The position numbers were made by a program, and so were the translations under genes. From Caldifarciminota bacterium (GTDB taxonomy: Bacteria; Hydrothermota; Tepidihabitantia; SM23-42), in assembly GCA_014859085.1 (NCBI GenBank), contig JACUUY010000006.1, positions 1 through 42,162 on the forward strand: 42,162 nucleotides of DNA, given 5' to 3'. Every line of letters starts with the position of its first letter. The stretch's first letter is position 1. This document shows, one piece after another, positions 16,660-19,101 of the stretch. The notes beneath the pieces are model-generated. The model was not told the DNA's origin, did no database searches, and saw only the letters and a program-made list of their open reading frames with translations.

Positions 16660-18060
16660 TTATTGTCTGAGCCAGTCCGGGTATTCTTTGTTCAGATATG
16701 CGAGGGCCTTCTGCGCCTTGTTCGCGTCGTTCATCTTGTCCTTGAACAGGGAGTAGATGCGGTGGATCGCCTTTGGCCTTGCCGGGCTCGTGCGGTGGAT
16801 CTGGATATACACACCGAACAATCTTGCCGCCTCTTCATAGCGGCCCGTCGCTTCAGAGTAATTTGCAAGGTTGTACAGATTTTTTTCCGAAAGGTCCTTC
16901 AAATGATCCTTTTCTTCTATTTCATCGTGCAGCGATGAAATGATATCCTGGTTTTCGGTCCGGAGGCCGATCCCGACCGCGCGGTCATACATTAGAGCGG
17001 CATCTTCGCACCGGCCTGCCGCGTCATAAAGACGCGCCAGGACAAGCGGTGCCTCGTGATTGTACCGCTCCTCTGCGGTGATCTGGGCCAGCAGGGGCAG
17101 CGCCGCTTCGGTATTGCCGTCATCCAGCAACTTGTATGCCTCCTTCATCCTCGGCGACACTTTCAGCTTCTCGAGACTTTCTTCGACCATCGGTTCGATA
17201 TACTGCTCTTCGATCCCCAGGAATTTGAATGAAGCGCCGGTTGCTGCGCCGAAGACAAAACCGCCGATGTGCGCCCAGTAAGCGGTCCCTGACTCGGCGC
17301 CCCAGACCGCACCGAGCACCTGCTGCGCCATCCATATCGGCAGAGCAACACCGGCGTAGACCGAGAAAGTGCCGAAGTAGGGCCGGATGAACAAGAAAAC
17401 GAAATAGGCGAACCGGATCTTGGTCTTGTAGTGGCGTATCATGAACGCGCCCATGATGCCGGCGATCGCGCCGGATGCGCCGATCAGCGGCACCTGGCTG
17501 CCGGGAAATGCCAGCGCATGAAAGATCCCGGCGACGAGTCCGGACGCCAGGTAGAGGCCGAGGAACACTTTCCAGGTCCAGTCATCCTCGATATTGCACC
17601 CGACCAGCCAGAGAAAGAGCATATTGAAGAGCAGATGGAAGAAGTTCGCATGCACGAACATCGAAGAGAACAGCTGCAAAAGGTTGAAGCGGGCAGGCGT
17701 CACCCCGAATCGGCTGAAGACGAGCTGGCTGTTCTTCTGTAGGTATATCTCGTAGAGGTTGTTCCAGCGCTGGTAGTCCTCGGTCCCGAGCGGTATGATG
17801 TCGCCGTCACGGATGCGCTCCCGGACCCGGTCATAATCGGCCTCGTCGAGCAACGCAGGGTCGGTTGCGACGATCTGGTATGTATAGTACGTTTCGATCT
17901 CGAGCATCCGCGCGTGGAGTTGCTCGAGCTCCTTTACCTGGCCGGACAGAACCATGCTCGTGATGATCCAGATGATCGTGTTGATCGCGATCAGACCGAT
18001 CGTCACATAAGGCAGCCGCCTGACCCCCTCTTCACTGCCGACCGGGATGATGAAAAACAT
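16660..18060 (-). CDS. Rhomboid-family intramembrane serine protease with C-terminal TPR-like region
   Basis: HANFFHLLFNMLFLWLVG, PLIGASGAIAGIMGAF (catalytic GxSG), YWAHIGGFVFGAATG; ATG at 18060 preferred because of promoter spacing. Confidence 0.9.
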   Translation of the reverse strand: MFFIIPVGSEEGVRRLPYVTIGLIAINTIIWIITSMVLSGQVKELEQLHARMLEIETYYTYQIVATDPALLDEADYDRVRERIRDGDIIPLGTEDYQRWNNLYEIYLQKNSQLVFSRFGVTPARFNLLQLFSSMFVHANFFHLLFNMLFLWLVGCNIEDDWTWKVFLGLYLASGLVAGIFHALAFPGSQVPLIGASGAIAGIMGAFMIRHYKTKIRFAYFVFLFIRPYFGTFSVYAGVALPIWMAQQVLGAVWGAESGTAYWAHIGGFVFGAATGASFKFLGIEEQYIEPMVEESLEKLKVSPRMKEAYKLLDDGNTEAALPLLAQITAEERYNHEAPLVLARLYDAAGRCEDAALMYDRAVGIGLRTENQDIISSLHDEIEEKDHLKDLSEKNLYNLANYSEATGRYEEAARLFGVYIQIHRTSPARPKAIHRIYSLFKDKMNDANKAQKALAYLNKEYPDWLRQ

Positions 18061-18067
18061 GGGCACA

Positions 18068-18095
18068 AATATAACACAATCAGCAAACTTGTCAA
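18068..18095 (-). promoter_or_regulatory. Promoter of the rhomboid gene
   Basis: TTGACA-N16-TATATT, 7 nt to ATG. Confidence 0.75.
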
Positions 18096-18103
18096 TCAAT
18101 TAC

Positions 18104-18131
18104 TTGACTTACCCGCATCTTTCTGTATAAT
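18104..18131 (+). promoter_or_regulatory. Promoter of the tRNA-Asp locus
   Basis: TTGACT-N16-TATAAT, then 7 nt to the first G of the 5' tRNA-like fragment at 18139. Confidence 0.75.
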
Positions 18132-18138
18132 GTGGCAC

Positions 18139-18243
18139 GGGGTCGTAGTTCAGCCTGTCCCATAACTTCCGAAAGCTTGTCTTTCGTGAAGTTGATGAGG
18201 ATCCCGTTTTGTGAAGGCAAAACGGGAGTTAGAACGCCTGCCT
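18139..18243 (+). pseudogene. Truncated tRNA-Asp 5' fragment interrupted in the D-loop by a 70-nt two-hairpin element (18158..18227)
   Basis: 18139-18157 GGGGTCGTAGTTCAGCCTG and 18228-18243 GTTAGAACGCCTGCCT match the intact tRNA contiguously; the insert begins TCCC and ends GGGA. Confidence 0.8.
18158..18227. repeat. Two-hairpin inserted element, copy 1
   Basis: TCCCAT-AACTTCCGAAAG..CTTTCGTGAAGTT-GATGAGGAT-CCCGTTTTG..CAAAACGGG-A. Confidence 0.7.
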
Positions 18244-18282
18244 CTCGTATTACATCGGGACGGCGTAGAAGCAATAGCAAAC

Positions 18283-18357
18283 GGGGTCGTAGTTCAGCCT
18301 GGTTAGAACGCCTGCCTGTCACGCAGGAGGTCGCGAGTTCAACTCTCGTCGGCCCCG
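18283..18357 (+). tRNA. tRNA-Asp (anticodon GTC)
   Basis: Full cloverleaf: GGGGTCG/CGGCCCC acceptor, CCTGC-CTGTCAC-GCAGG anticodon arm, GCGAG-TTCAACT-CTCGT T arm; CCA not encoded. Confidence 0.95.
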
Positions 18358-18370
18358 CTTTTTGGCGATA

Positions 18371-18457
18371 GTCGCGAGTTTCCCGTCCCGCAACGCGGGA
18401 CGAGGATCCTCGTTCGAGTCGATAAGACTCGAACGGGACAACTCTCGTCGGCCCCGC
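18371..18457 (+). pseudogene. tRNA-Asp 3' fragment interrupted in the T-loop by a 58-nt two-hairpin element (18381..18438)
   Basis: 18371-18380 GTCGCGAGTT and 18439-18457 CAACTCTCGTCGGCCCCGC+ match the intact tRNA contiguously; the insert begins TCCC and ends GGGA. Confidence 0.8.
18381..18438. repeat. Two-hairpin inserted element, copy 2
   Basis: TCCC-GTCCCG..CGGGAC-GAGGATCCT-CGTTCGAGTC-gataa-GACTCGAACG-GGA. Confidence 0.7.
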
Positions 18458-18472
18458 TCTCCTTCGGAGATA

Positions 18473-18560
18473 GATGCCGCTGATGAAAGACCACGATTAC
18501 AATGATGGAAACGACAGATTACTGCGATACACACATAAGATTACAGCGATAACAACGAAC
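18473..18560. repeat. Four degenerate tandem 22-bp units (GATTACNNYGATRRAAACRACA-like)
   Basis: GATGCC/GATTAC starts at 18473, 18495, 18517, 18539, exactly 22 bp apart. Confidence 0.6.
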
Positions 18561-18570
18561 AGGGTCTATT

Positions 18571-19101
18571 TCATGTCTTGTGGTATTTTGATTCGGTGAG
18601 GATCGAATGATCCCGTAGCCGGTATATACGCGCCAACATTTTGTCGATCGTCAGCTCGATGCAGCCGAAGCACGGCGGAAAACCCCTCTTGTCCTCATTC
18701 TTCAGGTGGCCGGGATTGAAAAACACGATGCCGCGCTCCTGCTTTATCTCCGGCACATGGGTGTGACCGTATAATACAACATGTATCTGCCGCGCCTCGA
18801 TCAAGGCTTCGGGTTTCGCATCGCCGGGCAGGTCATTGGCGTGCGCGCTTAACGTGTGGGTCAGCAGGAACCGCCAACCCGCGAAATTCTCGATCAGCCG
18901 GTTGCGTATCTTCTTGTCCTGATAGGCATCGCAGAACACACCCGGCACGCGTATGGCATCGTGTTCACCGATCTCATCCATGTCTCCGTAATCATCACCC
19001 AGATGGATCAGTTTATCGACACCGGCCTCTTTCAGATAAAGGACCGCGCTGGACAGGTTGGCGATGTGCTTGTGCGTATCACTGATAACACCTATTTTCA
19101 T
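18571..19101 (-). CDS. YfcE/MJ0936-family metallophosphoesterase
   Basis: MKIGVISDTHKH, IHLGDDYGDMDEI, LTHTLSAHAND, LYGHTHVPEI. Confidence 0.92.
   Translation of the reverse strand: MKIGVISDTHKHIANLSSAVLYLKEAGVDKLIHLGDDYGDMDEIGEHDAIRVPGVFCDAYQDKKIRNRLIENFAGWRFLLTHTLSAHANDLPGDAKPEALIEARQIHVVLYGHTHVPEIKQERGIVFFNPGHLKNEDKRGFPPCFGCIELTIDKMLARIYRLRDHSILTESKYHKT

Follow-up and report, generated by a model that had tools for sequence, protein, structure and literature searches.

Double-hairpin elements in tRNA gene loops and the duplicated tRNA fragments that accompany them in WOR-3 and other bacteria

The intact tRNA-Asp gene of a candidate division WOR-3 (Stahlbacteria) MAG, designated here G000, lies between two fragments of the same tRNA, and each fragment is interrupted in a loop by a short insert composed of two hairpins. 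Such inserts, referred to below as double-hairpin elements (DHEs), form a family of short non-coding palindromes, and those lodged in tRNA loops are marked by a diagnostic duplication of the outer tRNA segment next to the intact gene. On balance we favour, with moderate confidence, the view that DHEs are mobile elements inserting at TT|(n)AA-like sites and that the tRNA fragments stem from a rescue of the interrupted gene by template switching. The outer fragment would then probably be a record of the switch that saved the tRNA, and it would need no function of its own.

The tRNA-Asp locus

The window, i.e., the whole stretch of 42,162 nucleotides that was analysed, carries the locus on its plus strand. 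It begins with a predicted sigma-70-type promoter at 18104–18131 (TTGACT at 18104–18109, 16 nt, TATAAT at 18126–18131), which agrees with the consensus at 11 of 12 bases; no second plus-strand promoter-like site is present in 18040–18600, this pair being the sole one. The predicted +1 falls at or near 18138–18139, so that transcription would begin about where a 5′ tRNA-Asp piece starts; this piece comprises the acceptor 5′ strand and the first half of the D arm (18139–18157, identical to 18283–18301). In the D loop this piece is cut by the 70-nt DHE 1 (18158–18227), whose two hairpins (18158–18201 and 18202–18227) are conserved in the genus and show paired changes. The tRNA-Asp sequence continues after the insert at 18228–18242. 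The whole remainder of this 5′ module (18228–18265) completes the D arm and opens an anticodon-like arm; it consists of the D-stem 3′ strand and a hairpin at 18235–18265 (CGCCTGCC..GTATTACAT..GGGACGGCG) that replaces the anticodon arm and is kept in G001–G004, G006, and G007. An unconserved 17-nt spacer (18266–18282; mean pairwise identity 0.44) precedes the intact tRNA-Asp(GTC) at 18283–18358, identified by ARAGORN and by the Rfam tRNA model (66.5 bits). The 3′ module follows 12 nt past the intact tRNA and contains, by comparison with the intact copy, a 10-nt stub of the T-arm 5′ strand (18371–18380), the 58-nt DHE 2 with a two-hairpin fold in the T loop (18381–18438), and the T-arm 3′ strand with the acceptor 3′ strand (18439–18458, identical to 18340–18359). 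The identities of the tRNA pieces to the intact tRNA-Asp amount to 21/21, 20/20, 18/19, and 10/10.

This layout had been described in a first-pass annotation made from the sequence alone, and its promoter with the +1 at the 5′ fragment was confirmed base by base, as were the 70-nt cut of the D loop, the start of the intact tRNA at 18283, and the 58-nt cut of the T loop. The two hairpins within TCCC...GGGA ends that it saw in both inserts are also real: the inserts are abutting hairpins of the form [TCCC..AGGA][TCC..GGGA], with folding energies of −33.7 and −39.0 kcal/mol and z-scores of −6.9 and −6.3, and none of 200 shuffled sequences was equally stable. The first hairpin of DHE 2 is nested, a hairpin within a hairpin (TCCCG[TCCCGCAACGCGGGA]CGAGGA). 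The annotation noted no target duplication, and there is indeed no short one at the insert; viewed over a longer range, the outer stretch of tRNA is a duplication in its own right. Among the known RNA families in Rfam, tRNA alone reaches the gathering threshold at the locus; a sub-threshold resemblance to mir-5681, at 25 bits where 88 would be needed, was disregarded.

An assembly artefact was ruled out, the same layout being present in independent MAGs, of which two are single-contig chromosomes (CP070802 and CP070664). In G002, tRNA-Asp module sequence occurs at two places beside runs of N (L060 and L008), which is probably a scaffolding error. It had also been suggested that the intact tRNA relies on the promoter of the fragment. 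Such read-through is plausible, because the predicted promoter precedes the 5′ module in several relatives and stands directly before the tRNA in G005, which has no module.

The DHE family and its insertion sites

DHEs were defined as TCCC-hairpin-GGATC-hairpin-GGGA sequences of about 45–95 nt with the ends TCCCG/CGGGA and the centre GGATC; the surveys are pattern-based and miss degenerate copies. In G000 the pattern TCCC-N-GGATCC-N-GGGA marks about eight real places and the reversed control pattern none; pattern searches of this genome gave 12 matches versus one for the control, and in a second search 20 versus none. The DHE is therefore a short palindromic repeat dispersed within one genome, and relatives hold many further copies. 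The DHEs of WOR-3 and Omnitrophota have in common only the ends, the centre, and the architecture, and they may be convergent. Presence of the elements varies among related genomes, and it is from this polymorphism, together with the dispersal, that we infer mobility; at close range, no two strains were found that differ by the presence of one particular insertion.

A mobile hairpin element aimed at tRNA loops was one of two origins put forward in the first-pass annotation. The proposal is well supported: the inserts belong to a dispersed family that, in three or more phyla, occupies many different tRNAs, in the T loop, the D loop, or the anticodon loop. Its target was drawn too narrowly: tRNA loops are only part of the range, which also takes in a CGAAG|CAATCTC repeat in WOR-3 and in-frame sites within protein genes in Omnitrophota. 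The other proposed origin, an insertion process at the RNA level, received no positive support.

As judged from the junctions, the insertion sites appear to resemble TT|(n)AA. Within tRNAs the examples include GTT|CRA in the T loop, GTT|CAG or GCT|CAA in the D arm, and sites in anticodon loops, and at every site T-rich sequence meets A-rich sequence in a short junction such as GTT|CAA, TT|CAA, TTC|GAA, or TTT|AAA. On C40, C93, and C243 of G000 (L313, L318, and L314, respectively) DHEs are located at one point of another dispersed repeat, AAG|CAATCTC. This repeat has the sequence GTCATTGCGAGGAGCGAAGCGACGAAG-CAATCTC or a variant of it and is cut at CGAAG|CAATCTC. Targeting of any hairpin loop was considered and dropped, the joined flanks of non-tRNA copies giving a mean stem of 3.36 versus 3.14 after shuffling. 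Hairpin loops are no commoner at these sites than expected by chance, and what the sites seem to share is a preference for a short sequence.

The enzyme mobilising DHEs was not found among the genes inspected, which included 15 Y1/RAYT-type loci. One explanation would combine chance duplications of tRNA ends with REP/BIME elements mobilised by RAYT (Y1) transposases. DHEs do resemble BIMEs, being paired palindromes inserted without target duplication, and Y1 genes are numerous, with 12 in G000 alone. However, none of the 15 loci has a DHE beside its Y1 gene, the ends there read GGGGTCAAATCT..AGATTTGACCCC, the targets of the DHEs are different, and the geometry of the tRNA duplications, described below, is far from random; we regard this explanation as highly improbable. 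The RAYT-like genes of WOR-3 (L076, L077, L079, L081–L083, L098, and L101), flanked by ends of the GGGGTCAAATCT / AGATTTGACCCC type, represent a separate palindromic system.

tRNA modules in other genomes

When the genome and its relatives were searched as the first-pass annotation had advised, both the inserts and the fragment layout were found again; the inserts are not unique, and homologous loci carry the pattern. The 3′ module consists of 8–12 nt of the T-arm 5′ strand, a DHE in the T loop, the T-arm 3′ strand, and the acceptor strand. Relatives in the same family, closed chromosomes among them, have it downstream of an intact tRNA for Pro (three anticodons), Leu(CAG), Gly(GCC), Val(CAC), Ser(CGA), or Asp; at these loci it mostly matches the tRNA next to it. 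A search of 27 genomes for T-loop modules beside intact tRNAs yielded 16 matches, all flanking tRNAs, versus none for the control. Across approximately 85,000 bacterial and archaeal species the pattern GGTT|TCCC..GGATCC..GGGA|CRANYCC has 39 matches. Thirty of them are modules next to a tRNA, in WOR-3, Omnitrophota, and Patescibacteria (Kerfeldbacteria, Buchananbacteria, Gottesmanbacteria, Blackburnbacteria, and Microgenomates); the remaining nine have no tRNA nearby and are about as many as chance would give, our own estimate, made beforehand, being roughly 6–7.

The T-arm stub usually measures 8–12 nt in both WOR-3 and Omnitrophota, that is, it corresponds to the hairpin base, and the gap between the tRNA and the module is usually 5–110 nt. 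Tandem modules are present at L138, L144, L157, L258, L276, and L064, with two-unit arrays in G007 and G021. In G022 (L135) the unit carries a copy of the spacer together with the start of the downstream gene, and hence the outer part is a real duplication. Modules are absent from the nearby species G005, G010, and G012.

Position of the fragments and the proposed rescue

To avoid circularity, the tRNA was left out of the pattern in a further survey, in which the element alone was sought in 13 Omnitrophota and Patescibacteria genomes, 12 of them with matches. For 34 of the 78 DHEs the flanks, once the insert is skipped, can be aligned with an intact tRNA close by; of 537 randomly chosen positions at these loci, 8 gave such an alignment. 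The genomes had been reached via T-loop matches, and the share is thus not a genome-wide rate for their phyla. The type of loop goes together with the side of the fragment. All 12 D-loop copies (Glu, Gly, Arg) lie upstream of the intact tRNA, while of 16 clear T-loop cases 15 lie downstream and one upstream, the exception (L288) being an almost full-length copy ahead of the intact gene; a doubtful T-loop row matched to a distant tRNA-Ile (L301) was left out of the count. Anticodon-loop copies occur on either side, three upstream (Ala, Gly, Arg) and two downstream (Cys, Glu). For the D and anticodon loops this left/right rule is independent of the T-loop-based choice of genomes, and the window obeys it, its single D-loop module lying upstream of the intact tRNA and its single T-loop module downstream.

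An intact tRNA accompanied by a 3′ fragment is also the classical outcome of integration (PMC9897764), and the 3′ fragments could be att-site remnants of larger tRNA-integrated elements, with or without a GIY-YIG gene; DHEs would have landed later in the redundant T loops of these fragments. A GIY-YIG ORF is indeed located between tRNA-Asp and the fragment in G008 and G021, although the short gap between tRNA and module usually holds neither integrase nor cargo. Integration at the 3′ end yields no upstream D-loop or anticodon-loop fragments, the fragments start at the T-arm base in several tRNAs, and tandem modules also count against att remnants, so that we consider this origin improbable. 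Integration scars share with DHE loci the combination of a complete and a partial tRNA copy, but the latter have no island or integrase, bear fragments on both sides, and contain a hairpin insert in the loop; such scars (PMC9897764) leave both the inserts and the upstream fragments unaccounted for. The GIY-YIG protein as the mobiliser of DHEs was likewise rejected, its gene standing between tRNA and module in G008 and G021 only. GIY-YIG nuclease genes are also located directly downstream of what by eye resembles a tmRNA 3′ end at L115 (G005) and L112 (G007).

In the tRNA fragments DHEs sit between adjacent tRNA bases with no short target duplication. Under the template-switch rescue that we prefer, such an insertion would destroy the tRNA gene. 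Replication would copy the extended hairpin, leave at its base, and switch to the sister copy without the insert. Insertion into the T loop would then give [intact tRNA]-[T arm with DHE + acceptor strand], insertion into the D loop [acceptor strand + D arm with DHE]-[intact tRNA], and insertion into the anticodon loop a fragment on either side. The switch predicts a stub that ends at the hairpin base, which matches the stubs of WOR-3 and Omnitrophota. Afterwards the modules would amplify in tandem and drift.

Copies in protein genes

Most of the Omnitrophota copies located outside tRNAs lie inside ORFs of more than 100 codons. The length of 22 of the 28 non-tRNA DHEs inspected is divisible by three (p ~ 1e-6 versus an expectation of one third). 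Among the inserts of the T-loop modules, lengths divisible by three are not favoured (15, 17, and 9). Two frames recur, giving ..FSR..GGIPPEAGK.. or ..NFPAK..AGSRP..RREK... The host genes include those for leucyl-tRNA synthetase (LeuRS) and an ABC-F protein; in an alignment of the latter, the extra peptide encoded by the DHE corresponds to a gap in the solved relatives. Orthologous insertions are common to related MAGs in the pairs L260/L270, L262/L267, L250/L278, and L266/L280. The in-frame loci are L235, L238, L250, L252, L254, L257, L260, L262, L265–L267, L270, L278, and L280. In-frame insertion is established for the Omnitrophota copies, with WOR-3 outside that result.

Conservation of the modules and nested tRNA halves

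The modules could instead be functional RNA, the 5′ module serving as a structured leader or both modules together as an outer tRNA-like frame, with paired acceptor strands and with D and T arms lengthened by hairpins, that surrounds the intact tRNA and takes part in its processing or regulation. Most of the genus (G001–G004, G006, and G007) has retained the tRNA-Asp 5′ module, as has G008, and the three parts of this module have mean pairwise identities of 0.93, 0.76, and 0.83 in five genomes, compared with 0.44 for the spacer. This conservation above the adjacent spacer, together with two-sided changes in some hairpin pairs, suggests that the 5′ module is under constraint, unlike a neutral relic. 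The two-sided changes concern only 4 of 31 predicted pairs, however, and quasi-palindrome correction, which can keep palindromes perfect without selection, could also have preserved the hairpins. The outer acceptor strands are complementary in the window and at L170, L175, L179, and L184 (p 0.00–0.05 each, by shuffling), T-stem pairing is retained in most of the diverged modules, and the E. coli RtT, discussed below, is annotated as an sRNA or cis-regulatory RNA. On the other hand, most loci carry one module only, the number of modules varies, G005 and other relatives possess the same tRNA with no module, and the DHEs in protein genes indicate that the insert needs no RNA role. A functional role of this kind seems to us unlikely, albeit worth keeping in view.

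The outer 3′ acceptor strand of the Patescibacteria loci disagrees with the inner tRNA. At L170, L175, L179, and L184 it is instead complementary to the upstream 5′ tRNA half (7/7, one with a G-U pair), and since the outer halves are complementary to each other, the intact tRNA sits between two halves of another. A second tRNA gene may have been the source of these halves, or they may still join in one RNA; simple rescue of the same gene does not predict them without a further step. In an extended form of the functional explanation, the intact tRNA would be enclosed, in both WOR-3 and Patescibacteria, by another tRNA-like RNA that is split in two, has pairing acceptor strands, and carries the hairpin elements in its D and T loops; its halves would not be relics, and this tRNA-in-tRNA would mature or control the inner tRNA. 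We find this extended form somewhat more doubtful. In Kerfeldbacteria the upstream 5′ halves at L170, L175, and L179 have another type of D-arm hairpin (CCCCGCAC..GCGGGG) that recurs at Leu and Val loci. At L178 long inverted repeats (CCCGCCCGCCTTGCTTCGCC / AAGGCGAAACGGGCGGG) enclose an intact tRNA-Val(TAC), all of it within the D arm of a surrounding tRNA-like copy.

Comparison with known systems

The E. coli tyrT repeats, or RtT (L212, 601–1041), have a T-arm stub, a 68-nt structured T-loop insert, and the tRNA 3′ end; the unit junctions read AAGGTTCG|ACTCGAGC..GTTGAGT|AATCCTTCCCCCACCACCA and the insert ends are ACTC/GAGT. Like RtT, the modules are tandem tRNA-3′-end units with a structured insert downstream of an intact tRNA. 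The inserts are, however, unrelated in sequence, the comparison covers RtT for tRNA-Tyr in one lineage only, and no module matched the Rfam RF00391 covariance model, which gave 135 bits with L212 as a positive control. How RtT arose may be explained by its parallel with the WOR-3 modules.

Rickettsia palindromic elements (RPE) are short palindromic repeats inserted in frame in protein genes. The Omnitrophota DHEs are in-frame palindromic insertions as well, but they occur in other phyla, differ in sequence, and consist of paired hairpins, and DHEs have tRNA loops with flanking fragments as their main class of sites.

The mitochondrial double-hairpin elements of Allomyces (DHE) and the sponge RHE are composed of two abutting short hairpins, are dispersed, and are thought to be mobile by a mechanism not known (PMC2800124). 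The window inserts likewise have two adjacent hairpins per element. The mitochondrial elements differ in their setting, being organelle sequences found between genes and within rRNA genes, and the passages describing them mention no tRNA-fragment geometry (PMC2800124). In style, the mitochondrial double-hairpin elements and RPEs are the nearest relatives of the DHEs.

Significance

A search of the open-access literature, with most subscription journals outside its reach, found no description of the arrangement of tRNA fragments and DHEs. Here, short palindromic elements appear to have repeatedly entered the most conserved sites that a genome offers, the loops of tRNA genes, and a fixed left/right geometry would record how a working tRNA was kept. 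In a number of uncultured phyla of bacteria this points to a little-known type of mobile DNA that can enter indispensable RNA genes and leave the cell alive. It also provides a comparative handle on how non-coding palindromic elements (RPE, DHE, REP) move and on the nature of the E. coli tyrT/RtT repeats, which have the same anatomy with a different insert. Finally, it is a warning that tRNA fragments are not always the scars of integrated islands.
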